Assembly: GCF_024734665.1 (NCBI RefSeq) | Contig: NZ_CP102931.1 | Span: 6,136,001-6,200,000 of the forward strand | Origin: Variovorax paradoxus | Lineage (GTDB): Bacteria; Pseudomonadota; Gammaproteobacteria; Burkholderiales; Burkholderiaceae_C | Direction of reading: 5' to 3' | Length of the DNA stretch: 64,000 bases | Part shown: positions 1-34,457 of the stretch, one piece after another | Numbering within the stretch: the first letter of the stretch is position 1 | How the letters are laid out: every line of letters begins with the position of its first letter | Notes under the pieces: model-generated | Databases searched by the model: none | What the model was told of the DNA's origin: nothing | The model's input: only the letters and a program-made list of their open reading frames with translations | Program-made: the position numbers and the translations under genes

Positions 1-499
1 GTGCCGACTTGACCTTCACCGTGCGGTAGCTGATGGAGATCAGCTCCGAGGGCACGCCCCAGTGGCCGCCGGAGTTGAGCACCAGCCGGCAGATGCGCGC
101 GTTCTCCAGCACCATCTCGAAGGTCGACTGCGCATCGGGCGAGCGCTCGTCGCCGCCCGACTTGAAGGCGCTGATGACGACCTTCAGGTCTTTCTCCTGC
201 GCGCGCAGCAGGCTGGCGATGGTGGCGGTGGCCGCGTCGCTGCGGCGCGCAACGATCAGGTTGTTGGGCACGACCTGGTTCTGGCTGGAAGATTCGGGCA
301 CCTGCACCGACCAGTAGTAACCGCCGATGTTCATGCGCGCCTTACCGTCGTCGAAGGGTCGGTCGAGTTCGCCTTCGACCGGCGCGCCCTTGTTCTCGAT
401 CAGCATGACCAGGTCGGTTTCGGCCGAGCCGGTGCCGATCAGTTCGTAGAACCGCTGGGCGTCTTCAGGGCTCCAGGAGCCATCGTCTAGAAATGCCAT
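1..499 (-). CDS. Hcp-like T6SS protein (partial, runs off the window)
   Basis: Only the first 166 codons are in the window; the 3' end lies beyond base 1. The start is the ATG at 499-497, preceded by a strong GGAGGTGA. The protein begins MAFLDDGSW. Its second half has the strand pattern of the Hcp/TssD tube family: a segment containing RRSDAATATIASLL, then a hydrophobic strand (VVISAF), then TFEMVLENARI and ELISISYRTVKV. Hcp rings form the inner tube of the T6SS and can also carry effectors. It is the last gene seen in the T6SS-linked minus-strand run, 54 bp after the caspase gene. The N-terminal 50 residues are not typical of Hcp, so a divergent Hcp-fold effector is also possible. I see no signal peptide. 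Confidence 0.55.
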   Translation of the reverse strand, partial: MAFLDDGSWSPEDAQRFYELIGTGSAETDLVMLIENKGAPVEGELDRPFDDGKARMNIGGYYWSVQVPESSSQNQVVPNNLIVARRSDAATATIASLLRAQEKDLKVVISAFKSGGDERSPDAQSTFEMVLENARICRLVLNSGGHWGVPSELISISYRTVKVKSA

Positions 500-553: not shown

Positions 554-2638
554 TCATGGCCGGGCTCCGCCACCATCCATGGCGCCGCCACTCCTGCGCA
601 GCAGGGCCGCGAACACCTGCCGCTCGCCGCTCTCTGCAGGTGGCTGGCCGCCGCGCACGCGCACTTCCGACACATCGGCCTGCGCATAGGCCACGCCGAA
701 CAGGCGCGGCGCGCTGTAGGGCGTGGCGGGCACGGCCATGACCAGCAGTCGCGCATCGCCAGCAGCATCGAGCCAGGGCAGGTCGAAGCGCTTGACCGAG
801 GGCTGATCGGGCGTGCCGCGCTTGAAGCGGTTGGTTTCGCCGACGAGCTCGTCGGGGTAGACCGACTGCAGGTTGCCGCGCGCGTCGATGCCGGCGATGA
901 CGAGATCGAGCGAACGGCCGCTGGTGTTGCGCACGTTCAGGCGCAGGCGCTCGCCGGTGCGCAGCGAGGGCAACGCGCTCGCCGCTTGAGCAACGGGCGT
1001 GCTGCGCAACATGCGGTCGGCGCTCCACACTTCGAGCGCGGCATCGAAGCCGTCGAGCTGGCCGTCCTTGCCGTAAGCCTGCAGCTGCGCGAGCCACTTG
1101 AGCTGCGCCAGGGCCTGCAGGCGGCGACGCAACGTGGCGGTGTCGGGCAGCACCACAGTGGAAACCGTGGCGCCGAACAGCGGCGAGAGCAGTTCGAGGC
1201 GCTGGCCCGAGGGGCCGAGGTCAGTCCAGCGCACGTCGGCGGTGGCCGCATCGTCGGTGGGGCGGATCGCGGCCGGGTAGTCGAGGCTGAGGCCGGCGGG
1301 CAGCGGCTTGTCCGCGCGCACGCGCAAGGCGGTGGCGGCCGGCTCGCTCATCGGCGTGACGCTCCAGAACGCAGCGCCCGATACATCCTTCAGCGCCGCC
1401 GGCACGGCCAGCCATGCGCCGCCGAGCTTGATCTGCGACACGGTGGCCGGCGCGCTGCGCACGGCGCCGTCTTCGAGCGTGGCGAGCACGCGCAGCTCCT
1501 GCTGCTGCGCGAGACCGTCGAGCAAACCGGCCTTGATGGCCAGGCTGTCGCCGCTGCGTTGCGCGCGCCACACGGGGCGCGTGGATGCGGGCGCGCCGCT
1601 GTTGGCGAACAGCGGCGCATCGAGGTTGCCTTCGGCCACCGGCGACGGCAGCTCGCGCGTAGGAAAGCGCTGCGCGAGTTCGTCGATGACCGGCGGGTAC
1701 TGCGCGAGCACGCCGTCGAACAGGTCGCGCCAGGTGGCGGGCTTGCGCGACAGCGCCTCCACCACCGCCCAAGTCAGCAGGCCCTGCGGCCGGGCATTGC
1801 GCGCCTTGCGGGGCAGGCGCAGCTCGGGCGTGATCTGGTGGCTTTCGGACGCGAAGAAGGCGACGTAGCGGGCGCGTGGCACGGCTTCGGCCGGCACGGG
1901 CGGCGTCTGCGGTCGCGCTGGCGGTGCGCCACCCGTCAGTTGGGTCACGCGCAGGCCGCGCCAGCGCACTTCGTCGTCGGGCGGACCTTCGGCGGTGGCG
2001 GGTGCATCGGCCGTGCCGCGCGTCATGGAGTTGGCGGAGCAGGTGTCGAACACCGAGGCGACGAACACGTTCTTCGCGAGGAAGGACTGGATCCACGCGT
2101 CGAAGTCGACGTCGCGCAGGTCGCCCGTGAGCACGTTGTCGCTGCCGAGCGTGCCGCGCACGTCGCGCGCGAGAAAGTTCTCCGACAGCCCATCGGGCTC
2201 CTGGTAGCGCTTGGCGATGTCGCGCAGGCGGGTGCCGTGGCCGGAGAAGTACAGCAGCACGAAGTCGCCGCTCTTCGACTGCGCGAGCAACCTGGCCAGC
2301 GCGTCGTGGATGGCTTGCGATTCTGGCAGCGCGGCGCCGCTCACGCCGTCGGCGAGCACTGCGATGTCGGGCGCCGCGAAGCCCTGCTTGAGCAGCGCGT
2401 CGCGCATCAGCATCACGTCGTTGCGCGGCGCCTGCAGCCACAGTGCCTGCGGCTGGTTGACGAGTTCGGAGACACCGACGAGCAAGGCGCGCGGGGTGGC
2501 GAAGGCCAGGGTGCAGCAGGCGAGCAGCCACAGCACGAGCAGCACCTGGAGAAAGCGCAATTGCGTGACGCCCTTCCCCTTGGGCCGCAGGTGAAGGTGC
2601 AGACGGGCAGCATGCCCGAGGGCCGCGGCGCGTGTCAT
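554..2638 (-). CDS. secreted or membrane-anchored caspase-family (C14) peptidase with DUF4384-like C-terminus
   Basis: 694 residues. The ATG overlaps the stop of the upstream anti-sigma-like gene (ATGA at 2638-2635), so the two are translationally coupled; the reading frame is open further upstream but that part overlaps the neighbour. A hydrophobic stretch at about residues 29-46 ends in ALAFA-like small residues and should act as signal peptide or anchor. The caspase fold follows: RALLVGVSEL, the catalytic His at 134 in YFSGHG and the catalytic Cys at 200 in VFDTCSANS (usual form D-x-C-H-S-G; here the residue after Cys is Ser). About residues 590-660 resemble the DUF4384 domain (RLRLNVRN, NLQSVYPDE, RLLVMAVP), which is often fused to kinases and caspases. 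Family knowledge: bacterial C14 proteases cleave after Arg/Lys or Asp and may act in regulated proteolysis. Substrate unknown; the neighbouring anti-sigma-like protein is the obvious candidate. Confidence 0.8.
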   Translation of the reverse strand: MTRAAALGHAARLHLHLRPKGKGVTQLRFLQVLLVLWLLACCTLAFATPRALLVGVSELVNQPQALWLQAPRNDVMLMRDALLKQGFAAPDIAVLADGVSGAALPESQAIHDALARLLAQSKSGDFVLLYFSGHGTRLRDIAKRYQEPDGLSENFLARDVRGTLGSDNVLTGDLRDVDFDAWIQSFLAKNVFVASVFDTCSANSMTRGTADAPATAEGPPDDEVRWRGLRVTQLTGGAPPARPQTPPVPAEAVPRARYVAFFASESHQITPELRLPRKARNARPQGLLTWAVVEALSRKPATWRDLFDGVLAQYPPVIDELAQRFPTRELPSPVAEGNLDAPLFANSGAPASTRPVWRAQRSGDSLAIKAGLLDGLAQQQELRVLATLEDGAVRSAPATVSQIKLGGAWLAVPAALKDVSGAAFWSVTPMSEPAATALRVRADKPLPAGLSLDYPAAIRPTDDAATADVRWTDLGPSGQRLELLSPLFGATVSTVVLPDTATLRRRLQALAQLKWLAQLQAYGKDGQLDGFDAALEVWSADRMLRSTPVAQAASALPSLRTGERLRLNVRNTSGRSLDLVIAGIDARGNLQSVYPDELVGETNRFKRGTPDQPSVKRFDLPWLDAAGDARLLVMAVPATPYSAPRLFGVAYAQADVSEVRVRGGQPPAESGERQVFAALLRRSGGAMDGGGARP

Positions 2639-3810
2639 GGCCGCTGCTCCCCGGCCGGCCCGGCCGACTCGACCAGCGGCGAAGCCGCGAGCACCGCCAG
2701 CGCATCCACCGGCTCCGGCACCCGCAGCCGCCATACGCCATTGCCACCCGGATCGCCCGGCCCGCCCACCACGTCGGCCGATATCGACTGCAGCAGCCGG
2801 TCGGCCTCGTCCATGCGCACGCCGGCCTTCCAGCGCACCACCAGGTCGGCGCGCGCCGGCGCGGGTGCGGCTGGCACGTCGCGGAAGCGCACCTCGTCTT
2901 CCTCGGGAGCACCGCGGCCGCCGAGCAGCCCGACGTTCTGGATCACCACGAACAGCGCCAGCACTGCGAAGGCCGGGCGCGCCCAGCCTTCCGCGCCGAA
3001 CCAGCGGCGGATGCTGCCCCACCAGCCGCCTTCGGGACGGGGCTGCGGCCGCGCGGGCGATGGAGCGGGAGAAGAAGAAGCCTCGTCACCCTGCGGCCGC
3101 GTCAGCGCCTTTCCTAGCTGCAGGCCCGCGTCGCGGTACAGCTCCTGGTAGTCGGCACGCGGGTCCTGCGGCCCGAGCGGCGTGCCCGACAGCACCGAGA
3201 ACACGCCGCCCACGCCGCGCAACGCGATGCGCCCCGGCTCCGGCGCAATGGCGAGCGATGCGTGCGCGGCCCACTCGTCGTGCACCGCGCGGATCGCGGC
3301 CAGCCGCGTGGCCGAGACCTCGCCGAGCACGCGCGCGCAAAGCTGCGGAGCGGGTGCCAGCGTGAGCACGTTCCAAGACTGGATCACGCCGAACATCGGC
3401 TCGAAGGGCTCGTCGTCAGGCTCCAGCAGCACGTCGAAGGCAGATGCCCAGTCGGCTTCGCCGGCGGCCATCCAGCCTTGCCAGAGCTCACCGTGGATGC
3501 AGCGGTCGAGCAGCACGCCGAGCAGCCGCCCTTCGTGCACCACGCTGACAAGGCGGCCCGGCGCCCAGCGGGCCGGAAAGGCGCGCTGGGCGACAGCCTC
3601 GCGGCGCCGGGCCAATTCGACAAGAGGCAGCAGCAGGTCGGATGCGGCGGCCACCCGGGGGGCCGGTGCAGCGCCCGTTGGAGGGGACGTTCCCGGCATG
3701 GCCACGGTGGCCGTGCCGGGTGCGCTGTCCGGCGCATCGTCGGGCACGGCCGCGCCGGTTTCCAACGCGTGGCGGATCACGCTGAGCGGGGGCCAGAGGT
3801 CGTGGGTCAT
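2635..3810 (-). CDS. membrane-anchored anti-sigma-like protein
   Basis: 391 residues. The first 270 form a cytoplasmic region of unknown family (notable: GRLLGVLLDRCIHGELWQGW, LLEPDDEPFEP, VIQSWN). A proline-rich linker leads to one membrane segment at about 285-302 (AFAVLALFVVIQNVGLL). The last 80 residues (ADLVVRWKAG, DEADRLLQSISADVVGGP, WRLRVPEP, LAASPLVESA) resemble the small protease-prodomain-like module found at the C-terminus of many proteobacterial anti-sigma factors. There is no HxxxCxxC zinc finger, so if it binds a sigma factor it does so differently. It lies 27 bp after the sigma-like gene and overlaps the caspase gene by ATGA. Role as anti-sigma is inference from topology, C-terminal module and gene order. 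Confidence 0.5.
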   Translation of the reverse strand: MTHDLWPPLSVIRHALETGAAVPDDAPDSAPGTATVAMPGTSPPTGAAPAPRVAAASDLLLPLVELARRREAVAQRAFPARWAPGRLVSVVHEGRLLGVLLDRCIHGELWQGWMAAGEADWASAFDVLLEPDDEPFEPMFGVIQSWNVLTLAPAPQLCARVLGEVSATRLAAIRAVHDEWAAHASLAIAPEPGRIALRGVGGVFSVLSGTPLGPQDPRADYQELYRDAGLQLGKALTRPQGDEASSSPAPSPARPQPRPEGGWWGSIRRWFGAEGWARPAFAVLALFVVIQNVGLLGGRGAPEEDEVRFRDVPAAPAPARADLVVRWKAGVRMDEADRLLQSISADVVGGPGDPGGNGVWRLRVPEPVDALAVLAASPLVESAGPAGEQRP

Positions 3811-3837
3811 GGCGTCTGTTCCTGAATGGCTATGTCT

Positions 3838-4587
3838 TCAGGCATAAGACGCTTCAGCACCGAGGATTTTGAAAACCTGCAGGATCGCGGCCATGTTGTC
3901 GGGCTCGATGGCGATGCCCAGCGTCTGCTGGAGCCAGCCGCCGATCCGGGTTTTGGCGTAGTCCGCGGTCAACCCCTCGCGCTTGTGCACGAGGCCCAGC
4001 CGGCCCGCGCGGTAGTGATAAGAAGCAATGGCGTGGCGCGAGGCGATGCCCGACAGCCCGCCCTCGGCCTCCTTGCCGAAGCCCTCGCACAGCAGCAGGC
4101 GCTCGGGCTCGGGCAGTTCGGCGATGAAGGCGCGCGCGGCCACTTGCACGGCCTGCGCGCTCAGGCCATGCTCGGCCAGGCAGCCATCGAGGTCTTCGCC
4201 CGCGCCGATCTCGTCTTCGAGCTGCGCCTCGGTGATCTGGTCGCCGATGGAGAGCTTGCGGCGGAAGGAACTGGCGCGCGTGCAGTCGATGAGGTAGCGG
4301 CGGAAGTAGGCGCACAGGGCAAAGGCGGTGGAAGGCGCGCTGTGGCTGGCGCGCTCGTCGGCCTCGTCCGGGTCGGCATCGAGCCGCAGCACCTTCACGT
4401 AGATGAACTGCGCCACCAGCTCCTGCCGGCCCTCGCCCAGCACCTGCAGCTCGGGCGGATTGCAGGCCACCAGCGCATCGCCCACGATGCGGTACATGGC
4501 GCCCATGTCGTTCGGGGACAGCGTCTGACGCCGCCGCCAGAGGCGGACGAGCTCACTGCTTTCCGCGGACGAAAGGGTTTCCTGCAT
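3838..4587 (-). CDS. sigma-70-like regulatory protein
   Basis: 249 residues starting MQETLSS. The N-terminal part is helical and contains an aromatic/basic stretch (AFALCAYFRRYLIDCTR) like region 2 of sigma factors, where WRVARNRALDWLR-type sequence is usual. Residues about 160-210 (ELPEPERLLLCEGF, then GGLSGIASRHAIASYHYRAGRLGLVHKR) follow the plan of sigma region 4: a proline, acidic/basic helix, then an HTH. It is divergent enough that standard ECF profiles may miss it, and a C-terminal extension of about 35 residues has no counterpart I recognise. It is followed by the anti-sigma-like and caspase genes, an arrangement known for ECF sigma factors. Alternative: a non-sigma HTH regulator. Confidence 0.5.
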   Translation of the reverse strand: MQETLSSAESSELVRLWRRRQTLSPNDMGAMYRIVGDALVACNPPELQVLGEGRQELVAQFIYVKVLRLDADPDEADERASHSAPSTAFALCAYFRRYLIDCTRASSFRRKLSIGDQITEAQLEDEIGAGEDLDGCLAEHGLSAQAVQVAARAFIAELPEPERLLLCEGFGKEAEGGLSGIASRHAIASYHYRAGRLGLVHKREGLTADYAKTRIGGWLQQTLGIAIEPDNMAAILQVFKILGAEASYA

Positions 4588-4610: not shown

Positions 4611-6230
4611 TCAGTCGTCGACGCAGCTGCCCTCCGAAGGCACCAGGCACTGCGGCAGGTTCGCGCCCACCGGCCCGCCGCGCGTGCGGATGGCCGACGA
4701 CACCGCGGCCTGCGCCACGGCCAGGCCGCGCGGCAGCAAGATCCACAGCTGGCCGCGCTCCTTCATGCGGCGCGCATTGGTCGCGGCCTGCTGGCCGTTG
4801 CCGAAGAAATAGTCGGCCCGCACCGCGCCGCGGATGGCGCCGCCGGTGTCCTGCGCGATCGTCAGGCGCTGCATCGGCGCGCCGCTGCCGGGCGTGCGCG
4901 TCGACACGAACACCGGGTAGCCCAGCGGCGTGCTGCGCGGATCGACCGCAATCGAGCGCCCCGCCGACAGCGGCACGCCGAAAGCGCCCACCGGTCCGCC
5001 CACGGGCGAGGTCGATTCCTTGAAGAACACATAGCTCGGGTCCTTGATGCCCGAGCCCGACACCGCGCCGGCCGCGCGCCGCCCCGGCACCACGACCGGG
5101 CCGCTGGCAACGGGCCGCGCGAGCGTGAAGCCGCGCGTGCGGATGGTGCCGCTGTCGACCGCGCCGACGTCGTCGTCATCGCCGTCGTCAAGCTGCAGCT
5201 CGATGGACGAGCCGCGCACCTTCACCGGACTGCGCGGCTTGCCGTTGGAAGCCTGCGCCAGCGTCGGGCGGAAGGGCTGGCCGTTCTGCTCGGCGTAGGC
5301 GACACGAACGATGTCGCCGTTGGCCAGCTTGATGCGGCCCGAACCCTGGATCTGCATTTCGTACAGCGCGGTGGCGCTGCTCACGAAGGCCAGCACCTTG
5401 GCGTTGGGCGCGCCCTTGGTCTCGATTTCTTCGCGCGTGTAGTACGGCAGCAGCTGCTTGCCCTCGACCCGCAGGCGCACCTTGCGGTCGAGCGTGTCGC
5501 GCGAAATGGCCGAGAGGTCGAGCGCATAGAGGCCCGGCGCGCCCATGTCGCGCGTGCTGAGGCCGGTCTGCACCACCACGTTGCGCCCTTCCACGCGGGC
5601 CGCCACCGTGCCGTTGCCGGCGGGCAGCTTGCGCGCATCGGCGAACAGCATGTCGTCGGGCTGTCCGTACACGGGGTAGATGAAGGGCGCGCCGTACTGG
5701 CGGGCGCCGGCGATCTCGGGCTCGAAGTAGCCGGTGACCACGCCGTCGGGCTTGCGGTCGTCGTCGCGAATCTGGTAGGCCGAGAACTCGCCCTCGAAGA
5801 AGCCCCGGATGGCGTTGTTGTTCTTGCCGTCGACCTTGAGCGCGCGGTCGCACACCTCTTTCCATTCGGCGCCGCGCCCGGTCAGCACCTTGCAGCTGCC
5901 GAGGAAGGCGGGCCAGCTTTCGGAGAAATCGTCGCGCGACCAGCCCGGCACCGAGTCGAAGCCCACCGAGGTGTAGGTGGCGAGCTGGGTCGAGAAGGTG
6001 CGCGCCTGCCCTGCCACGCTGGCGCCGGTCGGCGGCGGGCGCGAGGCGCTGCTGCTGGTGGCGGTGTCTGTCGTGGCCGCGCCGCTGCCCGTGGCGCCTG
6101 GTGGCGGCACGGCGCAGCCTGCCAGCGAGGCGATGACGGCAACAACGGCGGCAGTAGCGGCCCACTGGAGCACATAGTTGAGGCGCTGTTGCTGTTGTTG
6201 TTGCTGCTGCAGTGCTTGCGAGGTGGTCAT
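4611..6230 (-). CDS. mltA: membrane-bound lytic murein transglycosylase A (MltA), lipoprotein
   Basis: 539 residues. MltA cleaves the MurNAc-GlcNAc bond of peptidoglycan with formation of 1,6-anhydroMurNAc. The N-terminus has a run of eight Gln (residues 8-15), a hydrophobic helix and a lipobox LAGC with Cys38, so it should be lipidated. The MltA core includes VTGYFEPE, TREEIE, MQIQGSGRI, and the 3D domain with AIDPRSTPLG-like (SIAVDPRSTPLG) and IAQDTGGAIRG, whose Asp (about residue 461) matches the catalytic Asp of E. coli MltA. It is longer than E. coli MltA (365 residues), with an insertion rich in Asp around QLDDGDDDDVG. Position between the kinase and the sigma-like gene in the T6SS-linked run suggests local wall opening for the secretion apparatus, but it could equally be the general housekeeping MltA. 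Confidence 0.9.
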   Translation of the reverse strand: MTTSQALQQQQQQQQRLNYVLQWAATAAVVAVIASLAGCAVPPPGATGSGAATTDTATSSSASRPPPTGASVAGQARTFSTQLATYTSVGFDSVPGWSRDDFSESWPAFLGSCKVLTGRGAEWKEVCDRALKVDGKNNNAIRGFFEGEFSAYQIRDDDRKPDGVVTGYFEPEIAGARQYGAPFIYPVYGQPDDMLFADARKLPAGNGTVAARVEGRNVVVQTGLSTRDMGAPGLYALDLSAISRDTLDRKVRLRVEGKQLLPYYTREEIETKGAPNAKVLAFVSSATALYEMQIQGSGRIKLANGDIVRVAYAEQNGQPFRPTLAQASNGKPRSPVKVRGSSIELQLDDGDDDDVGAVDSGTIRTRGFTLARPVASGPVVVPGRRAAGAVSGSGIKDPSYVFFKESTSPVGGPVGAFGVPLSAGRSIAVDPRSTPLGYPVFVSTRTPGSGAPMQRLTIAQDTGGAIRGAVRADYFFGNGQQAATNARRMKERGQLWILLPRGLAVAQAAVSSAIRTRGGPVGANLPQCLVPSEGSCVDD

Positions 6231-6285: not shown

Positions 6286-8175
6286 TTACTTCTCGACGAT
6301 TTTGAAATTCCCGACGCCATAGACGTCGTTGCACGGGGCGCCGGGTGCGCACACGGGTTTGCCCAGCAACGGCGAGGGGCCGGTACCGCGCGTGGCTTCG
6401 AGCGCGGCCAGCACCGGCAGCGGGAACACCGGGAACACGCCGTCGTTCTGCACGCCGGCGGCGCTGAAGTCGCGCTCGTGCTCGCTCACGAGCACCGCGA
6501 ACTGGTCGGTGCCGGCCGGGCCGCCCGCGTCCATCGGCCACGAAGCGCGCGGCAGAGAAAGCGAACCGCCCGCGGTGATCTTGTTGTACTTGTCGAGCAG
6601 GTTCGGGAACAGCAGGAACATCTCGCCGCCGCTGGACAGCAGGAACACGTAGACAAAACCTTCGCGCTTGCTGCGCACCTCGAAGGCGAGGCGGTCCTTG
6701 CCGATGGCGACTTCGGCCTTCTTCGGCGTGGCCGTCACCTCGAAGCCGGGCGCAGCGCCGGTTGCGAGAGATTGCAGCGATTCGGCGGGCGTGCGCGGGG
6801 CCGGAGGGGGCGGTGGTGGTGGTGGCGGTGCTGGGGGAGCCTCTGCGATCTTTGTGTCGGGTGGCGGGGCCGGCGTGGTGGTGACGACCTTCGTGTCATC
6901 GGCGTTCGTGTTGCCGCCGGTGCGGCCCTGGAACCACCACCAGCCGCCACCGGCCGCGGCTGCGAGAACGGCGACCGATACGAGTGCGGCGACGGTCTTG
7001 TTGCTCTTGCCCCCGCCGCTGGTGGGAGCGGGCGCGGGCGCCGGCGCCTTGCCACCTGCCTTGCTCTTGCCGCTCGCGATGACTGTCGCGGCGTCGGCAT
7101 TGCTGTTGCCGCTGCGCGCGCCCGAAGGCGGCTGCGTGCGCGGCGTCGGCGCGATGCTGTGCCCCACTTCGAGATCGAGCGCGGCGCGCAGCTCGGCCAT
7201 CGACTGCGGCCGCTGCTCGGGCCGCACGCCAAGGCCCGCATCGATCGCCTCCAGCAGCCGCAGGCTGTAGCGCTGCCGCAGGATCTCGTTGCCCGCGAGC
7301 GGCACATAGCTGTCGGACAGCAGCCGCGCCACCGACGGCGGCGGCGCGCGACCGCACACCGCCACGTGCATCACGGCCGCGAGCGCATACACATCGGTCC
7401 ACGCGCCCTGCGACATGTCAGGCATCTCGGCGTACTGCTCGATCGGTGCGTAGCCTGGCTTGAGGATGACGGTGATCGCCTGCGTCTTGTCGGTGATCAC
7501 GCGGCGCGCGGCGCCGAAGTCGAGCACCACCGGGCGGCCCGAGCCTTCGAGCAGGATGATGTTGTCGGGGGCGATGTCGCGGTGGTAGCAGTTGGCGTTG
7601 TGCATCACCGCGAGCGCCTGCGTGACGCCGTCCATGATGCGGATGAGCCATGACTCGTCTACGCCTGCGGGGATGGCTACCAGGGCCTCTCTCAGCGTGT
7701 CGCCTCTGTAGAAAGGCATGACCATGTAGGTGGTGCCTTTTTCTTGCCAGAAGCGGTAGACCTTCAGGAGCGACGGGTGGTCGAACTGGGCGAGCAGGCG
7801 GGCTTCGTTGATGAAGCTGCGCATGCCGAGATCGAAGGTTTCCCTGTGGCGTTCGGACAGGGGGACTACTGTGCCGTCGTTCTGTCTTGTCGACAGTGAC
7901 GTAGGGAGGTATTCCTTGATTGCTACCACGCGTTCCAGCGTGTGGTCCCACGCCTCGTAGACGACGCCGAAGCCGCCTTGGCCTATGACTCTTGTGACTT
8001 CGAATTCGGCCAGGCGGCTGCCTACTGGCAACAGACCGGCGTCTGTGGTGCCTGTGGCTGGGCTGGTCACCGGGGTTGCGCCTGCGGTGATGACTGTGGA
8101 GGCCGTGTCGCCGGTTGTTGTTGGCTGGCCTTGCTTGGGGACTACGCGGGTGCGGTCGTCGTTGGAGTCAGTCAT
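6286..8175 (-). CDS. T6SS-linked transmembrane Ser/Thr protein kinase with DUF4384-like sensor domain
   Basis: 629 residues. Kinase motifs are intact: Gly loop GQGGFG at 65-70, Lys87 in AIKEYLP, HRD at 198-200, DFG at 219-221, and APIEQY in the activation segment. A disordered Ala/Pro/Lys linker follows, then one membrane helix at about 385-405, a proline tract, and a periplasmic DUF4384-like domain (LAFEVRSK, VYVFLLSS, LLFPNLLDKYN, QFAVLVSEHE). T6SS loci often encode such kinases (PpkA type), which control assembly by phosphorylating Fha-type proteins; no Fha or PppA phosphatase gene is in the window. AAGGAG at 8183-8188 lies 7 nt before the ATG and fixes the start. The gene is cut off from tagF by the large inverted repeat, so it probably has its own promoter or depends on read-through. 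Confidence 0.9.
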   Translation of the reverse strand: MTDSNDDRTRVVPKQGQPTTTGDTASTVITAGATPVTSPATGTTDAGLLPVGSRLAEFEVTRVIGQGGFGVVYEAWDHTLERVVAIKEYLPTSLSTRQNDGTVVPLSERHRETFDLGMRSFINEARLLAQFDHPSLLKVYRFWQEKGTTYMVMPFYRGDTLREALVAIPAGVDESWLIRIMDGVTQALAVMHNANCYHRDIAPDNIILLEGSGRPVVLDFGAARRVITDKTQAITVILKPGYAPIEQYAEMPDMSQGAWTDVYALAAVMHVAVCGRAPPPSVARLLSDSYVPLAGNEILRQRYSLRLLEAIDAGLGVRPEQRPQSMAELRAALDLEVGHSIAPTPRTQPPSGARSGNSNADAATVIASGKSKAGGKAPAPAPAPTSGGGKSNKTVAALVSVAVLAAAAGGGWWWFQGRTGGNTNADDTKVVTTTPAPPPDTKIAEAPPAPPPPPPPPPAPRTPAESLQSLATGAAPGFEVTATPKKAEVAIGKDRLAFEVRSKREGFVYVFLLSSGGEMFLLFPNLLDKYNKITAGGSLSLPRASWPMDAGGPAGTDQFAVLVSEHERDFSAAGVQNDGVFPVFPLPVLAALEATRGTGPSPLLGKPVCAPGAPCNDVYGVGNFKIVEK

Positions 8176-8779: not shown

Positions 8780-9445
8780 TCACCCCTCCTCCGCAAACCC
8801 AAAGAACAGGGCTTCAAACTGCTCATCCCGAGGCAACCCAGTACAGAGCATCCGAACCCCATGCTCAGCAGCAGGATCACCCAACCAAATCGAAGCCCCC
8901 GCCAGCGGCAAAGCCAGCGATTCAACACCACTCTCACGCCCGTCAGAAGATGCACCGTCAACAAACAGCCGATGCAACACTGCATCAAACCGCAGCGCAT
9001 CCAGATCCCCATCAAGCCCTTCCAACGCAGCCTGCGTAGCATGAGCCCACCACTGCAACGCCATAGCCAGCGCCTCCCCCTGCAGTTGCCCGGAAACAGA
9101 CTGATCAAGCTCCATAGCCAGAGCAAACGGAAAGTACCGCCCCACCCCATCGACAGAAGGCATCAACACCCCAATCCACGCCTGCTCCCCCGCCACCTGC
9201 CGCCCCAACGCAAAACACCAGATAGGCGCTTCGAGATACCGCTCAGTCCAGTCCGCATGCCGATCCCGCAGCCGGGCCATGCCCCGCTGCAGCCACTGAT
9301 CCCACACAGCACGAAACGCCTCCGGCAGCCGCCGATGCGCAAAGTCCCCCATGCCCGGCAACTTGCCGAACCACCCCGGCAACGCAGTCGAGGCAAAGAG
9401 CAACGGTGAAGAAGAGGAGGCCTCGTTCACAGCCCCTCCGGACAA
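8780..9445 (-). CDS. tagF: type VI secretion-associated protein TagF
   Basis: 221 residues. The N-terminal WFGKLPGMGDFAHRRLP is the hallmark of the TagF family (DUF2094), followed by WLQRGMARLRD, APIWCFALG and GVLMPSVDGVGRYFPFALA. TagF is a post-translational repressor of T6SS firing that acts on the Fha protein in Pseudomonas aeruginosa and works together with, or independently of, the kinase pathway. Length is usual for the single-domain form; there is no fused PppA phosphatase domain. The chosen ATG overlaps the end of tssM by 19 bp. Co-occurrence with the kinase gene on the other side of the repeat supports a shared role in switching the system on and off. Confidence 0.9.
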   Translation of the reverse strand: MSGGAVNEASSSSPLLFASTALPGWFGKLPGMGDFAHRRLPEAFRAVWDQWLQRGMARLRDRHADWTERYLEAPIWCFALGRQVAGEQAWIGVLMPSVDGVGRYFPFALAMELDQSVSGQLQGEALAMALQWWAHATQAALEGLDGDLDALRFDAVLHRLFVDGASSDGRESGVESLALPLAGASIWLGDPAAEHGVRMLCTGLPRDEQFEALFFGFAEEG

Positions 9446-12400
9446 GAAAACTCCCGCAACTCACGCAAGCGAATCGGATGCTGCACGCTGTTAGTCGTCA
9501 CCTCGAAGCGCGTCTTCCGAGCACCGATCTGGAAGGTAATGAAGAACTTCTCCGGTGCATCGCCGGCTTCGAGCTGCCCGTCGTCAAGCGCCCGGAACAG
9601 CGCCCACGGCCCATCCACAGCCGCACCCGAACTGCCAGTGGTCGAAGGCGGGCTGACCTGGATGCGCACCTGGTTGCTGCCCTTCGGCCCCGGCCACTGC
9701 ACGGCCATCGGCACCACCGGTCCGTGCGCGTACTTCACGAGCTGGCCGTCGACGTCGAGGATGAACTGCGTGATGCCCGCATCCATCTCTACCGGCTTGA
9801 AGTCCAGCCGCATCGAAGGCCCACGGCCGCCGCCGCGGAAGAAGATGTCCTTGATGCGCGCGGCCCGCTCGAACTGCGCCAGCGCCTGAGTAGTGATGGC
9901 ACCGCGCTCGGCCACGGGCTTGTAGCGCCACGGCTTGGTGCTGGTGTCGACCAGCGCGGCCAGGCGCTTCTGGAAGAAGTCGTCCATCAGGCCACCAGGG
10001 CCGAACATCTGGCCGAAGTCTTCGGGCAGCACGTCGCGCTTGCTGGTGCTCACGAAGGGGTAACGGCCCGCGATGGCGCGTGCGCAGAACTCGGCCACGG
10101 GGCGCAGGTCCTGGCTCAGGTTGCCGCGCTCGGCCGTCTGTGCCTGCGCGGCGCCAGACTGGCTGAGGTTCTCGACCATCGATCGCACCGGCTCTGGCAG
10201 GCGGCCCGCGTCTGACTTGAGCTTGCCGGCCACGTCGCCGGGCGGTGGCGAGGTGCGGCCCTTCACGGCCGTGTCGACGGCGTTGAGGTACACGTACACC
10301 TCGTTGAAGAGCTTCAGCGCATCGTCGATGGGTGCAGGCTGGTTGGGGCCGCCGGCGGTGACGAGGCGGCGCAGCGACTCGAAGCGGTCGTCCACGATGC
10401 TCTCGATGCGCTTGCCCGGGGCCACCTGGCGGCCGGGGTCGCTGCCGAACAGGTCTTCCAGGCCCTTGCGCGTGTTGCGCACTGTCTCGGTCGCCTTGCT
10501 GACCACGTCCTTGTTGGCGTCGGCCGCCGGGATCAGCGTGGTCTGCTTGACCACGGCGCGCAGGAAGTTCGCAAGCGGGGAATCGACGCCCGAAAGAATG
10601 CGCGCGGTCTCGATGTTCTTCTCCAGGCCGGTGGCGCGAATCAGGCGCACGTCGGCGAGCAGTGCTTCCCACTGTTTGACGTATTCCTCCAGGTACAGGC
10701 GGCGCACGCGGTCGGTCAGCGCGCCGAGCGCGGCCACGTCGCGCAGGCGGTCGGCGGCGTTGCGGTCCTGGCCCAGCACCCACGGATCTTCGTTGGCGAG
10801 CAGGCCGGTGAGCACGGTCACTTCGTTCTGGAAGCGCTTGTGATAGCCGTCGTAGGTGAACATGCCCGGCACGCCTTCGGTCAGCGGCTTGCCGCTGATG
10901 CGTTCGAACACCAGCGGGCCCGAGGGGCCGGTGGCGGTGGCCACGCTGAAAGCCGGAATGTCCTTGGTGGCGCGCTGGCGCTTCAGGCGGCTGAACACAC
11001 GCTGCTCCAGCGGGTAGCTCGCGAGCACGGCGCGCACGCTGCGCACCAGGTTCTCGTCCATCTTCAGCGGCGAGCGCGGCGGGCCCTGGGCAATGAGCAC
11101 GTCGAGCTGGTCTTCGAGCGCCTTGCGCTGGTCTTCGGGAATGCCGCGGTCGAGGTTGCGCGACCAGTCGAGCGTGATCCAGGCCTTCAGGGCCTCGGCG
11201 TCGAAGTGCTCGGGCTGGTAGAGCATCAGGTAGCTCTTGAGCGCCTCGTACGTGTACTCGAGGTTGTCCTTCTGCGCGGTGCGCAGCTGGTCTTCGATGC
11301 GCTTGGCGATCTGCGGCAGGAAGGCGTCGTTGAGCGCGCGCTGGTGCGTGAGCATCGCGGCGGCATCGAGCTTGTCGCCCTGGTAGAGGCCCAGCGTCAT
11401 CGACAGCGGCTCGTCGCCCTGATGGTTGTCGGGCGTCTTCCAGATGTCGCGCAGGCTCTGCAGCACGGGCGCGACCTCGACCAGGTTCTGCACGCGCGCG
11501 GGCAGCGCCGCAAGGTTCTGCTTGGCGGGCTCGACGCGGGCCTCGACCGACTTCAGGTAGTTCATGTTCTGCAGCGTGCTGTAGCCCCAGGCCGCGAGCA
11601 GGCCGACGGTGACGAGTGTCATCGCCGTCACGCCGATCACGCGCAGCGTGTGGCGGCGGCGCTCCAGCTTCACGTCGGCGCCGGCCAGGCGCTGCTCGGG
11701 GAACACCACCTCGCGCAGCAGCGAGGTAAGAAAGTAGCTGCGCCCGCTCGACTTCTGCGGCGCGAGCATCGCGCGCTCGATGCCGAAGCTGCGCGCAAGG
11801 CTGCCCATCACGCGGTCGATCGGGCTGCCCTCCTGCGTGCCGCTGGTGAAGTACACGCCGCGCACCCACGGCGGCTGCGCAAAGCGCGAGCCGGTGAACA
11901 CTTGTTCGAGCAGGTCGGACAGCAGCGAGCCGATGGAGCCGAACTGCGCCGGAAAACCGAAGATGGCGGCGCGGCGCGTGCCGTCGGTCTCGCGCTGCAT
12001 GCGCGCGATGAGGCCGTCGTTCACGCGGTTGTGCAGCAGCGCGAACTCGCGATTGAAGGCCGTGGAAAGGCCCTTCTCTTCCAGCTGCACGTTCTCGTTG
12101 GCCGGCAGCGTGAAGCCGAACACTTGTGCGCGCTGCTCCTTGCCGAGGTCGTCGAAGTAGTCGGTGAAGCCGTACAGCAGGTCGCTCTTGGTGACGAGCA
12201 CATACACCGGCAGGCGCGTGGTGAGCTTGCTGTCGAGTTCGAGCAGGCGCGCACGAATCGAGGCCGCAAGCTGCGTGCGCGCCTCGGGGCCCTGGCTCAG
12301 CAGGTCGGCCACGCTCACGGTGAGGAACACGCCGTTCAGCGGACGGCGCGGGCGCGCCTTCTTCAGCAGGCCCAGGAAGCCTTCCCATGCGCTCTTGTCT

Positions 12401-13029
12401 TCCGATTGGTGGCTGTCCTGCGTGGTGTAGCGCCCGGCGGTGTCGATGAGCACGGCCTCGTCGGTGAACCACCAGTCGCAGTTGCGCGTGCCGCCCACGC
12501 CGCGGATGGCGCCGGGGCCGAACTTCTCGGCGAGCGGGAAGCTCAGGCCCGAGTTGACCAGCGCCGTGGTCTTGCCCGCGCCCGGCGCGCCGATGAAGAC
12601 GTACCACGGCAGGTCGTACAGGTAGCTACCGCCCGAGATCGACATCCAGTCGCGCCAGCCCGGCTTCTTGCCGGCGGCATGCAGGCGCATCTGCTTGAGC
12701 GTGGCCACGGCTTCGCTGAAGCGCGTGTCGAGGATCTTCTGCTCGCCGTTGACGGGTGCGTCGGTCTTCGCGGCCGGCGCCTTCATGAGGCCGTCGGTCA
12801 AATGCTGGCTCGCACGGCGCGCGCGCCAGCGGCGGTACAGCGCGCGCAGCACCACGATGAGCACGATGACGCCGATGACGATGGCGCGCGTCATTTCGCT
12901 TTCGAGCGGCGCGAGCGAGCCGATCTTCACCAGCGGGCCGATCCACCAGATCAGCAGCGCGACGACGATCAGCGCGAGCAGTGTCAGCAGCAGCGGGCTG
13001 AACAGGAAGCCGAAGATTTTCTTGATCAT
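9427..13029 (-). CDS. tssM: T6SS membrane-complex protein TssM (IcmF/VasK)
   Basis: 1200 residues, normal for TssM. Start is the ATG of MIKKIFGF, overlapping the tssL stop as ATGA; the frame is open further upstream inside tssL. Two membrane helices lie at about 8-30 and 46-64, then a cytoplasmic NTPase domain with Walker A GAPGAGKTT (147-155) and the DTAGRY motif, then a third membrane helix at about 460-480 (TAMTLVTVGLLAAWGYS) and a long periplasmic part ending in the beta-rich IcmF C-terminal domain. With TssJ and TssL it forms the trans-envelope channel. Walker A is intact, so this TssM should bind nucleotide. Confidence 0.97.
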   Translation of the reverse strand: MIKKIFGFLFSPLLLTLLALIVVALLIWWIGPLVKIGSLAPLESEMTRAIVIGVIVLIVVLRALYRRWRARRASQHLTDGLMKAPAAKTDAPVNGEQKILDTRFSEAVATLKQMRLHAAGKKPGWRDWMSISGGSYLYDLPWYVFIGAPGAGKTTALVNSGLSFPLAEKFGPGAIRGVGGTRNCDWWFTDEAVLIDTAGRYTTQDSHQSEDKSAWEGFLGLLKKARPRRPLNGVFLTVSVADLLSQGPEARTQLAASIRARLLELDSKLTTRLPVYVLVTKSDLLYGFTDYFDDLGKEQRAQVFGFTLPANENVQLEEKGLSTAFNREFALLHNRVNDGLIARMQRETDGTRRAAIFGFPAQFGSIGSLLSDLLEQVFTGSRFAQPPWVRGVYFTSGTQEGSPIDRVMGSLARSFGIERAMLAPQKSSGRSYFLTSLLREVVFPEQRLAGADVKLERRRHTLRVIGVTAMTLVTVGLLAAWGYSTLQNMNYLKSVEARVEPAKQNLAALPARVQNLVEVAPVLQSLRDIWKTPDNHQGDEPLSMTLGLYQGDKLDAAAMLTHQRALNDAFLPQIAKRIEDQLRTAQKDNLEYTYEALKSYLMLYQPEHFDAEALKAWITLDWSRNLDRGIPEDQRKALEDQLDVLIAQGPPRSPLKMDENLVRSVRAVLASYPLEQRVFSRLKRQRATKDIPAFSVATATGPSGPLVFERISGKPLTEGVPGMFTYDGYHKRFQNEVTVLTGLLANEDPWVLGQDRNAADRLRDVAALGALTDRVRRLYLEEYVKQWEALLADVRLIRATGLEKNIETARILSGVDSPLANFLRAVVKQTTLIPAADANKDVVSKATETVRNTRKGLEDLFGSDPGRQVAPGKRIESIVDDRFESLRRLVTAGGPNQPAPIDDALKLFNEVYVYLNAVDTAVKGRTSPPPGDVAGKLKSDAGRLPEPVRSMVENLSQSGAAQAQTAERGNLSQDLRPVAEFCARAIAGRYPFVSTSKRDVLPEDFGQMFGPGGLMDDFFQKRLAALVDTSTKPWRYKPVAERGAITTQALAQFERAARIKDIFFRGGGRGPSMRLDFKPVEMDAGITQFILDVDGQLVKYAHGPVVPMAVQWPGPKGSNQVRIQVSPPSTTGSSGAAVDGPWALFRALDDGQLEAGDAPEKFFITFQIGARKTRFEVTTNSVQHPIRLRELREFSCPEGL

Positions 13030-14375
13030 TTCGTCGCTCCTGGTGCGGGAGCAGCCGGCGCGGCGGCAGCGAGCCGATCGGGTTCGGTCAGCAGCACGAT
13101 GTCGACGCGGCGGTTCTTCGCGCGGTTGGCCGGCGTGTCGTTGGCGGCGACGGGCTCGGCGTCTGCCTTGCCGTCGGAGCGCATGCGCGCGGGGTCGACC
13201 AGCGTTGTCAGCGCGCCCTTCACCGCATCGGCGCGCGCGGCCGAGAGGTGCCAGTTGGAGGGATAGCGCAGCGAGCGGATCGGCTGGTTGTCCGAGTGGC
13301 CGGTGATCAGCACCTCGCCCTTCACCTCGGCCAGCGCCTGGCCGATGCGGCGCAGCACGGGCAGCGACTGCGCCATCGGCTCGGCGCTGCCGGAGCCGAA
13401 GAAGGAGTCGCCGCGCAGGCGCACCACGCTGCGGTCGGCCTCGTCGGTCACCGTGACCAGGCCCTGCTTGATCTCGGGTTCGAGAAAGCGTGCGAGGCGC
13501 GGCGTCTTCGCCGGCAAGGCGGGCGGCGCGATCTGGATGTTGGGCGCACGCAGGCTCGACACCGCGGCGTAGGTGGTGTCGGAGCGGTAGTTGAGCGTGA
13601 GCCGCAGGCCGAACCACGCGAGCGCGAGCAACAGCGCAAAGCCGGCCGCGAACACCCACAGCGGCAGCGACTCGCGCAGCCGCACCGTGCCCGCGCCCTG
13701 CCCGCGCCAGTGCGGAGAAAGCTCGGGCTCCACGGCCGGGCGGTCTTTCGCGATCAGGTCGGCGAGGCGCTGGCGCACCGAGTCAAGCTGCGCGCGGCCG
13801 TTGTCGACCACGCGGTAGCGGCCTTCGAAGCCGAGCGCGAGCACGCTGTAGATCAGCTCCAGCAGCTGGCGGTGCGTGGGCACGTCCTGCGCGAGCTTGG
13901 CGAGCAGCTGGAAGACTTTTTCGCCGCCCCAGGTTTCGTTGTGGAACTGCACCAGCAGGCTCTGCTTGTTCCAGCCGGCCTGCACGCCCCAGGGCGTGTT
14001 GGCCACGGCTTCGTCGAGCGCGGTGCACAGCACGTAGCGCGCGGCGAGCACCGATTCATTGCTGACGCCAGCGCGCCGCGCATTGGCGTCGAACTGATTG
14101 ACAGCATCGGCAGTGGAGGCGCGCAGCGCCGGCACGTTGGGCGGCTGCGCAAGGTTGCGCAGCTTGCCGATCAACACCAGTAGCTTGCCGGCGGCCGACA
14201 CCAGCGGGTTGAGCAGGCCGAGCTCGCCGACGTCGGCGGCCGGTGTGGGATCGGCACCGCCGAAGAAAGGCGCCGGTGCCGGCGCGGGCGGCGTGCCACC
14301 GGGCGTGCGCGGCTTGGGCTTGATGACCGTGCGTTCCGACTCGAAGGCGGCGAAGGGGTCGGGAGGTGTGCTCAT
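13026..14375 (-). CDS. tssL: T6SS membrane-complex protein TssL (DotU) with peptidoglycan-binding OmpA tail
   Basis: 449 residues. A proline-rich N-terminus precedes the cytoplasmic DotU domain (NPLVSAAGKLL, YVLCTALDEAVANTPWG, WNKQSLLVQFHNETWGGEKVF, LLELIYSVLALGFEGRYR), then one membrane helix at about 239-259, then a periplasmic OmpA-like domain at about 325-440 with ITGHSDNQPI and NRRVDIVL. The OmpA domain anchors the complex to peptidoglycan; in systems without it a separate TagL does this. Lies between tssK and tssM; stop overlaps the tssM start. Confidence 0.95.
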   Translation of the reverse strand: MSTPPDPFAAFESERTVIKPKPRTPGGTPPAPAPAPFFGGADPTPAADVGELGLLNPLVSAAGKLLVLIGKLRNLAQPPNVPALRASTADAVNQFDANARRAGVSNESVLAARYVLCTALDEAVANTPWGVQAGWNKQSLLVQFHNETWGGEKVFQLLAKLAQDVPTHRQLLELIYSVLALGFEGRYRVVDNGRAQLDSVRQRLADLIAKDRPAVEPELSPHWRGQGAGTVRLRESLPLWVFAAGFALLLALAWFGLRLTLNYRSDTTYAAVSSLRAPNIQIAPPALPAKTPRLARFLEPEIKQGLVTVTDEADRSVVRLRGDSFFGSGSAEPMAQSLPVLRRIGQALAEVKGEVLITGHSDNQPIRSLRYPSNWHLSAARADAVKGALTTLVDPARMRSDGKADAEPVAANDTPANRAKNRRVDIVLLTEPDRLAAAAPAAPAPGATK

Positions 14376-14406: not shown

Positions 14407-15738
14407 CTAGGAACGAATGGCCCAGAACGCGAGGTCCAAGCCGGGGAAGTCGCCCGCGATATGCATCGCGATGCCGCCGGATTGCTCGAGCTGGCGCCAC
14501 AGGTCGCTGTTGCGCGTTTCGAGTTCGAAGTAGTTGGCGCCGGTGTGGAAGGGAATCTGCCGCGGCGCGACCGGCATCGGCGTGAGCGTGACGCCCGGCA
14601 GCGCAAGGTTCACCAGATCGCGAATGCGCTCGACCGGACCGATCTTCACCTGCGTGGGGAAGCGCGCGCGCAGCGCTTCGCTGGGCATGTTCGCGTTCAC
14701 CGCGAGCACGAAGGTCGCCTTGCGCTGCAGTTCCACGTCCGTCACCATCGCCACGCGCACACCGTGCTTGCGGTCATGCAGCTCGATGCGGATGGCCGAT
14801 TGCTCGAACACCATCGAGAGGCTGCGACGCAGGTCGTCCATCACCGGGCGGAAGCTCAGCGCAAGGTCGTCGTGGATGTAGGGGCCGAAGCGCGCGACGC
14901 GGCGCGAGTCGCGAAAGCTCGAAAGGTCGCCGGCCAGCCCGAGGGCATGTTCGAAGAAATGCTGCGGGTGCAGCATCGCGCTCTTTGCCAGGTGCGCGAA
15001 GATGGCTTCGTTGCGGTTCACGGCCTGCAGCAGCATGAAGTCGGCGATCTCGGCCACGCCGCCGGTGCCGCCCTGCGTCATGCGGCCCGCCAGCGCTTCG
15101 CCGCGCTGGCGCAGCAGCCCCAGCAGTTCGTCGAGCCAGGCGCGAATGACGGCATGGCCGGCCACGTCGAGCAGCGGCGGCAGCATGGCGCGGTCGAGCT
15201 GCACCTGGTTGTCGACGCGGCGCTCGACCACGCGGGCAACGCCGATGGTGGTCCAGGCGTCGGTGGCTTCGCCGGCACGCATCAGGCGCGTGTGGAGCTG
15301 GCCCAGTTGCAGCATCGCCGTGCGCTCGCCGGCGGTGTTCGAATCGGGCACTTCGGATTCGAGCACGCGGTGGCGCACCAGCTCTTCATATTCTTCGGCG
15401 TCGGCCTCGCGCGCACCGGCGCGGCGCAGCGGCAGTGCGAGCACCACGGCCTCGTCGCGCATGGACGAAGGAATGTCGATGGGCTCGGGCAGCGGGTCGA
15501 CCGCCGGCATGTCGAAGACCGTACCGTCGCCGAAGATGCCGACCGCCCGCACCAGCGCCAGCTTGCCCAGCGTGAGCGCAGCGGCGTCGATCTCCAGCTC
15601 GGCAAAGCCCCAGGCGTAGGGGGTGGTCGAACGCAGAAGCACATGCCTCGCATGATCGGCATGACGCTCGCTCTGCTGCAGGTGCTGAGGCTGCAACAGC
15701 ATCCCCTCGCTCCAGACCACTTTTGTTCGCCAACTCAT
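14407..15738 (-). CDS. tssK: T6SS baseplate protein TssK
   Basis: 443 residues starting MSWRTKVVWSEGMLLQPQHLQQ, the conserved TssK N-terminus. TssK trimers join the baseplate wedge (TssEFG) to the TssLM membrane complex. Other family features are ATPYAWGFAELEID-like sequence near residue 40, EHRFLLRQ-type helices and a C-terminal receptor-binding half ending FWAI. It is the first T6SS gene in the window, so the promoter of the tssK-tssL-tssM-tagF unit should lie in the 154 bp upstream. A 23-codon N-terminal extension is open but lacks family support and is not used. Confidence 0.95.
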   Translation of the reverse strand: MSWRTKVVWSEGMLLQPQHLQQSERHADHARHVLLRSTTPYAWGFAELEIDAAALTLGKLALVRAVGIFGDGTVFDMPAVDPLPEPIDIPSSMRDEAVVLALPLRRAGAREADAEEYEELVRHRVLESEVPDSNTAGERTAMLQLGQLHTRLMRAGEATDAWTTIGVARVVERRVDNQVQLDRAMLPPLLDVAGHAVIRAWLDELLGLLRQRGEALAGRMTQGGTGGVAEIADFMLLQAVNRNEAIFAHLAKSAMLHPQHFFEHALGLAGDLSSFRDSRRVARFGPYIHDDLALSFRPVMDDLRRSLSMVFEQSAIRIELHDRKHGVRVAMVTDVELQRKATFVLAVNANMPSEALRARFPTQVKIGPVERIRDLVNLALPGVTLTPMPVAPRQIPFHTGANYFELETRNSDLWRQLEQSGGIAMHIAGDFPGLDLAFWAIRS

Positions 15739-15818
15739 CCGCACTCCGTCAACGGCAAGGGTGCCTGAAAGAAACACGAAGTTTCCGGCGCGGGGGACGG
15801 GAGGCAAATCCGCCTTAA

Positions 15819-30395: not shown

Positions 30396-30397
30396 GG

Positions 30398-34333: not shown

Positions 34334-34457
34334 TGAACCCCCTGCGTGCGGCCCATGCATCCGCTGCTGCGGATGTTCGACGCCGCGGGAGTGCGCGCCG
34401 TTCAGGCCTCGGGGGGAAAGTCTAGGAGCGGCCTCCTGCCGCGCCTATTCTCAATAC

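Follow-up and report, generated by a model that had tools for sequence, protein, structure and literature searches.

A sigma-like protein, a MazF-fold membrane protein and a caspase encoded in a type VI secretion locus of Variovorax paradoxus may form a proteolytic switch

We analysed a stretch of 64,000 nt from Variovorax paradoxus (NZ_CP102931.1, 6,136,001-6,200,000; the window, to which positions refer unless a locus is named), in which three adjacent minus-strand genes within a type VI secretion system (T6SS) gene cluster encode a sigma-like protein, a single-pass membrane protein and a metacaspase-like caspase. It is fairly probable that the trio comprises a sigma factor, a MazF-fold membrane inhibitor and a caspase that cuts the inhibitor after a V-R-F-R motif, so freeing the sigma factor and likely changing T6SS expression. 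A sequence-only reading of the same DNA had already proposed that the caspase cleaves an anti-sigma factor in the periplasm.

The sigma-like gene (3838..4587) is followed after 27 bp by the membrane-protein gene (2635..3810, 391 aa), which overlaps the caspase gene (554..2638, 694 aa) by 4 bp. The caspase start is the ATG overlapping the membrane-protein stop (ATGA, 2635..2638), and the mechanical open reading frame at 554-3022 is an over-long frame. The tight packing, the gene order and the ATGA overlap noted in the sequence-only reading were borne out on the sequence. The slot of the trio lies inside the T6SS gene cluster, with mltA upstream (23 bp from the sigma gene) and an hcp-like gene downstream (54 bp from the caspase gene).

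The same arrangement recurs in related bacteria. Among 100 genomes of the genus, the sigma gene was found in 66 (65 strong matches and one at 8.8e-4), the membrane protein in 66, the caspase in 71 and TssK in 82. Sigma and membrane protein occurred together in 65 genomes, 63 of which also had the caspase; G206 and G227, the two without it, have a locus that reaches the contig end. A separate scan of named genomes gave 195 relatives of sigma, of which 80 were kept. In loci L067-L130 (n=64), from Variovorax, Xenophilus, Pseudacidovorax, Rhodoferax, Polaromonas and relatives (L109 and L110 being one strain), the membrane-protein gene comes after sigma in 64/64, the caspase gene is present in 55/64, and 63 loci have mltA before the trio and 57 an hcp-like gene. 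Of the nine loci lacking the caspase, six are cut off by a contig end (L075, L080, L093, L098, L099, L102) and three truly lack it (L126, L129, L130). A chance grouping of the trio was rejected by these surveys, and the expected recurrence beside T6SS genes in conserved order was found.

A T6SS exists without the trio as well: 17 genomes of the genus have TssK but no sigma gene, and of 12 stretches taken from them, five hold mltA and then hcp with no trio gene between the two, which lie 33-143 bp apart in four stretches and about 810 bp apart in L168. The trio as an obligate T6SS part was rejected because it is absent from these five complete slots. As for the rest of the 12, L170 has a different T6SS layout, five stretches end before the slot, and L176 carries a partial membrane-protein gene. 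In this last case (L176:7869-8615, genome G295) the N-terminal part of the gene stands alone in the T6SS slot, with no match to sigma or caspase, and the fragment is probably a remnant. As a regulatory cassette, the trio behaves like an add-on. Its spread is narrow, as sigma was found in 8/200 genomes of the family and 6/399 of the order (one weak, 1.9e-4), and the MazF-fold profile in 2/369 genomes of the class and 5/39 in the family of G495; weak sigma matches in G226, G054:C17 and G930 were set aside.

Structure prediction gave the membrane protein a MazF-fold domain (residues 78-185, predicted cytoplasmic; 3256..3579), a membrane helix (residues 278-296; 2923..2979; hydropathy 2.36) and a subtilisin-propeptide-like domain (residues 320-385, predicted periplasmic; 2656..2853). 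The folded soluble part matches MazF, and the helix is present in all 55 caspase-bearing loci. The protein had no Pfam or NCBIfam match, with 0 Pfam families at E<=1 and none at E<=10 for five relatives. Classical (class I) anti-sigma factors carry a helical anti-sigma domain, a fold that did not appear among the matches listed for the model of the membrane protein. The single-pass topology of the sequence-only reading is predicted here too, and its anti-sigma-like protein has a predicted MazF fold, a helix and a propeptide-like domain, apparently in place of the classical fold. By analogy, the membrane protein is likely to be an anti-sigma factor in which the MazF-fold domain holds sigma inactive. 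CalpT and Csx30 of the CRISPR-linked switches discussed below each hold an extracytoplasmic function (ECF) sigma factor and are cleaved by the protease of their system (excerpts of PMC11417357 and PMC10028731); most simply, the MazF-fold domain would hold sigma in the same way, but from a position at the membrane. CalpT is reportedly a MazF homologue (said to be described by Rouillon et al. in 2023).

Conservation in the linker that follows the helix is poor outside V-R-F-R (residues 307-310; 2881..2892): the mean identity is 84% in columns 305-310 and 49% in the rest. When L126, L129 and L130 were taken out of the alignment, R310 was kept in all 35 rows left. A motif of the V-R-F-R type is present in 55/55 caspase-bearing loci (44 VRFR, 5 MRLR, 2 VRYR, 2 VLFR, 2 VRLR) and in 119 of 120 homologous proteins among the matches listed (347 in all), where the sole listed exception, P0080 (302 aa), has no predicted helix. 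It is found in 0/3 of the loci truly without caspase: in L126 the periplasmic domain and a weaker helix (1.58) persist without the motif, the helix is lost from L129, and L130 keeps the MazF-fold part, having lost both helix and periplasmic domain. In a divergent group (13 aligned), an arginine (R-G/A-L/I) occurs in the same linker in 11/11 members with a helix by eye; L054, the sole member with a known caspase neighbour, is adjoined by a divergently transcribed caspase gene (C14 3.5e-25). Excerpts of PMC10896300 describe Arg as the P1 residue that metacaspases favour, report a strong preference for Arg over Lys in an algal type II enzyme, and name VRPR as the usual test substrate, its design following the optimum of a type II metacaspase from Arabidopsis. 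V-R-F-R, which is close to VRPR, is a candidate caspase site just outside the membrane, with cleavage expected after R310.

The 694-aa protein matches Peptidase_C14 (PF00656, 8.9e-10) and the generic caspase model of PADLOC (4.9e-10), and the best solved-structure matches of its profile are metacaspase-4 (AtMC4, 6w8r; 6.9e-14) and then AtMC9 (1.4e-12). Its catalytic domain (residues 50-307; 1718..2491) includes D74, S132, H134, D198 and C200, all invariant in 24/24 aligned caspase proteins, and the His134/Cys200 dyad sits where the sequence-only reading had placed it. In an alignment with TbMCA2, D74 and S132 equal D95 and S156 there (tag offset 20), and D198, two residues before C200, corresponds by spacing to D211 as given in an excerpt of PMC4357240. 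By these residues, the caspase keeps the His-Cys dyad and the acidic arginine (S1) pocket of metacaspases. It is predicted to be exported, based on a hydrophobic N-terminus or signal peptide read by eye. The proposed periplasmic cut gains both a candidate site, in a motif that accompanies the caspase and is gone from the loci that truly lack it, and a matching arginine pocket.

In the proposed mechanism, the predicted cytoplasmic MazF-fold domain would bind the sigma factor and keep it inactive, by analogy with CalpT and Csx30. A signal, perhaps envelope damage or attack, would lead the exported caspase to cut the membrane protein after R310, outside the membrane. With this cut, the propeptide-like domain would come off and the membrane stub would lie open to further proteolysis, and breakdown of the stub would release sigma, as is still only supposed for Csx30 too. 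The freed sigma factor would then change gene expression, with T6SS genes as the likely targets. Some caution applies to the case for the cleavage site: the rows in which the motif was counted are kin, the losses are few, and the motif and the caspase gene sit close together.

The assignment of the first gene product comes from its predicted structure. The 249-aa protein has a sigma2-like N-terminal half, a sigma4-like part (residues ~133-223) and a C-terminal extension, and the combined sigma2 and sigma4 fold was predicted with modest confidence. Foldseek alone was not decisive (best E 0.52 for the sigma model, and 0.021, to MazF, for the membrane-protein model). Plain family searches returned nothing for the sigma-like or the membrane protein; against Pfam the sigma-like protein reached 0 families at E<=1 and a distant member reached Sigma70_r2 only at 1.2, and no credible match turned up when PDB sequences were searched with the profiles of sigma and the MazF-fold protein. 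The protein is predicted to be an ECF-type sigma factor, and the sigma-like fold supposed in the sequence-only reading was found at that confidence.

A different control of this sigma factor could come from the PpkA-type Ser/Thr kinase with DUF4384 encoded two genes upstream (6286..8175, minus strand; PF00069 2.1e-27, PF14326 8.5e-14), if phosphorylation were the main switch, as for EcfK by PknS, and the membrane protein and caspase acted elsewhere. There is a precedent in the Xanthomonas citri T6SS locus (PMC8999054; excerpts of PMC13147305), and some Burkholderiaceae loci have lone sigma genes near a PpkA or PP2C gene. We consider this unlikely, because EcfK-type factors have their phosphorylated Thr in sigma2.2, whereas the stretch that matches the QTTA-type motif of ECF43 reads GRQE here, with no Ser/Thr, and because the membrane protein, its motif and the caspase would be left unexplained. 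An ECF43-type phospho-switch as the main mechanism was set aside for the lack of Ser/Thr in this motif. The caspase has a long C-terminal part with a DUF4384 match in 4/24 members at E<=0.01 (best 0.00095), and DUF4384 in the kinase and, weakly, in the caspase C-terminus is perhaps a shared periplasmic sensor.

The MazF fold might instead suggest a toxin system, in which the sigma-like protein holds back an RNA-cutting MazF-fold toxin until the caspase frees it under attack. An Arg-Pro dipeptide is part of the MazF active site; its position is Leu-Gly in the window protein, though Arg-Pro is kept in some relatives. The partner is moreover sigma-like, and CalpT acts as an anti-sigma factor in the excerpts of PMC11417357, and a toxin is about as unlikely as control by the kinase. 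Similarly unlikely is that the caspase serves as an envelope protease or effector with the membrane protein as its inhibitor and the sigma gene merely in the same operon: the periplasmic domain does resemble subtilisin propeptides in its predicted fold, which are known as inhibitors of their proteases, and the caspase gene adjoins the hcp-like gene, but sigma lies beside the membrane protein in every one of the 64 loci, and L130 keeps the MazF-fold part though caspase, helix and periplasmic domain are lost.

The reading of the trio as a sigma factor under a caspase-cut membrane inhibitor gains support from relatives found elsewhere. Profile searches reached Propionivibrio- and Thiodictyon-type proteins, and one distant family has, in five genomes, the gene order sigma-like, MazF-fold, CHAT in 5/5 loci (L166:8118-12375; L165:7718-11981; L154:7326-11217; L164:1-2928; L167:1698-5929). 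The Pfam CHAT match is present in all five triads at 1.2e-7 to 0.003, with 2/5 above the curated cut-off. In hhalign comparisons the distant and T6SS-locus families matched at 2.9e-38 for sigma and 1.3e-37 for the MazF-fold protein; the distant MazF-fold proteins have a different C-terminal part and no such membrane helix by eye. RAMP proteins (6e-23, 1.2e-5) are also encoded in L166, and a CRISPR-like array in L165 comprises ~100 repeats spaced 71-75 bp apart; L154 has a few repeats of a similar kind. The CHAT triads are possibly unrecognised relatives of Craspase/Calp modules. A broader idea, which we hold only tentatively and think doubtful, is that the trio is a caspase alarm outside CRISPR: on sensing damage or an incoming hit, the envelope-facing metacaspase would cut the MazF-fold membrane anti-sigma factor at VRFR and let a dedicated sigma factor fire the cell's own T6SS. 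On this view the trio and the CHAT modules, some of which lie beside CRISPR elements, would belong to a single family of switches that combine a sigma factor, a MazF-fold inhibitor and a caspase-clan protease and in which the sensors are interchangeable.

The attachment to T6SS claimed in the sequence-only reading is conserved as a slot, but it is not exclusive. In G158 and G917 (L158:14847-18280; L155:1481-4700) no T6SS gene was found by tblastn and the sigma and MazF-fold genes are still adjacent, as they are in the CHAT versions; a T6SS-only module was rejected, as neither the loci of these two genomes nor the CHAT loci are in a T6SS stretch. On the downstream side of the sigma/membrane-protein pair, G158 and G917 have a gene for a zinc-ribbon protein, fused to OmpA in L155. 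The window has a second caspase-clan protein of its own, with a CHAT domain and TPRs (32189-34360; 4e-64), ~28 kb from the trio and adjoined by a TPS-domain protein (24969-30776).

Sigma genes also occur alone, in loci L131-L146 (n=16) and in five plasmid loci (L042-L046). T6SS genes lie within 8 kb of the lone sigma gene in 5/16 of the former. A look at the regions upstream of the 21 lone sigma genes showed a conserved block of two GTTTACCC-type repeats 11 bp apart, followed by CACTTAATCCATAT. It was seen upstream of Burkholderiaceae lone sigma genes in L131 (block at 2234-2250), L133-L135, L140-L142, L145 and L146, and also in L150/L157, and the exact GTTTACCC/CACTTAATCCATAT pattern occurs in 11/179 loci, L150 and L157 being the same genome stretch. 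From its sequence the block looks like an operator or promoter; no link to T6SS promoters was found. In L045:6503-15732, on a Paraburkholderia plasmid, the lone sigma gene is near a thiazole/oxazole-modified microcin (TOMM) bacteriocin cluster with a kinase/cyclase fusion.

The remaining neighbours of the trio are T6SS genes and their companions. Upstream and likewise on the minus strand, Pfam identified the MltA-type protein next to sigma (4611..6230; PF03562 2.3e-29) and, beyond the kinase, TagF (8780..9445; PF09867 3.5e-41), TssM (9427..13659, start of the reading frame over-long; PF14331 2.6e-92), TssL of the DotU-OmpA type (13026..14375; PF09850 5.5e-71) and TssK (14407..15807; PF05936 3.3e-149). 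Downstream are the Hcp-like gene next to the caspase (2..499, minus strand, running off the window; PF05638 1e-5), TssF (5.2e-209) and a ClpB/ClpV-type AAA protein.

The sequence-only reading is partly supported: its outline is right, the inhibitor is apparently of another kind than it supposed, and the idea has precedents. Its author knew of no described system of this exact form, and our search of the open-access literature on T6SS or ECF sigma factors with an anti-sigma factor and a caspase or peptidase C14 found no description of the trio among the papers listed; Csx29/Csx30/CASP-sigma, CalpL/CalpT/CalpS and EcfK are the precedents. If the proposed switch is true, it would assign bacterial caspases, outside CRISPR, both a definite substrate and a part in signalling, and there would be a new way to control a T6SS, by which envelope events could change gene activity. 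MazF-fold sigma inhibitors would then form a family whose members pair with different proteases and act in different compartments. One arginine change at the candidate site would put the switch to the test.

The best reading by analogy is that the trio represents a membrane version of the CalpL/CalpT/CalpS and Csx29/Csx30/CASP-sigma types of switch, outside CRISPR. In CalpL/CalpT/CalpS of type III CRISPR, cutting of the anti-sigma factor starts the release of an ECF sigma factor (excerpts of PMC11417357 and PMC12751052). Both systems have adjacent genes for a protease, an inhibitor (a role only proposed for the trio) and a sigma factor; however, CalpL is a CRISPR-linked Lon-SAVED protease activated by cyclic tetra-adenylate, whereas the trio has a C14 caspase and a membrane-anchored MazF-fold protein in a T6SS locus. 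In type III-E CRISPR, the TPR-CHAT protease Csx29 cuts the inhibitor Csx30, which blocks the ECF-like CASP-sigma (excerpts of PMC10028731). That system is RNA-guided and uses a CHAT protease, in contrast to the C14 protease of the trio. Neither a CRISPR link nor a Lon-SAVED or Cas7-11-Csx29 protease was found with the trio, the scanned neighbours of which are T6SS genes. In EcfK-PknS (ECF43) of X. citri, an ECF sigma factor encoded next to a Ser/Thr kinase in a T6SS locus is needed to induce T6SS genes according to excerpts of PMC13147305, which describe no caspase or membrane inhibitor; this factor is switched by a phosphorylated Thr that is absent from the trio sigma. Compared to the type II metacaspases AtMC4 and AtMC9, the caspase of the trio is bacterial, predicted to be exported and has a long C-terminal part. 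In proteolysis of the RseA/DegS/RseP type, a single-pass anti-sigma factor is first cut on the periplasmic side. Such a first cut is outlined in excerpts of PMC10028731. In the trio, the first protease would instead be a caspase and the inhibitory domain a MazF fold, and both the candidate site and the protease are present.
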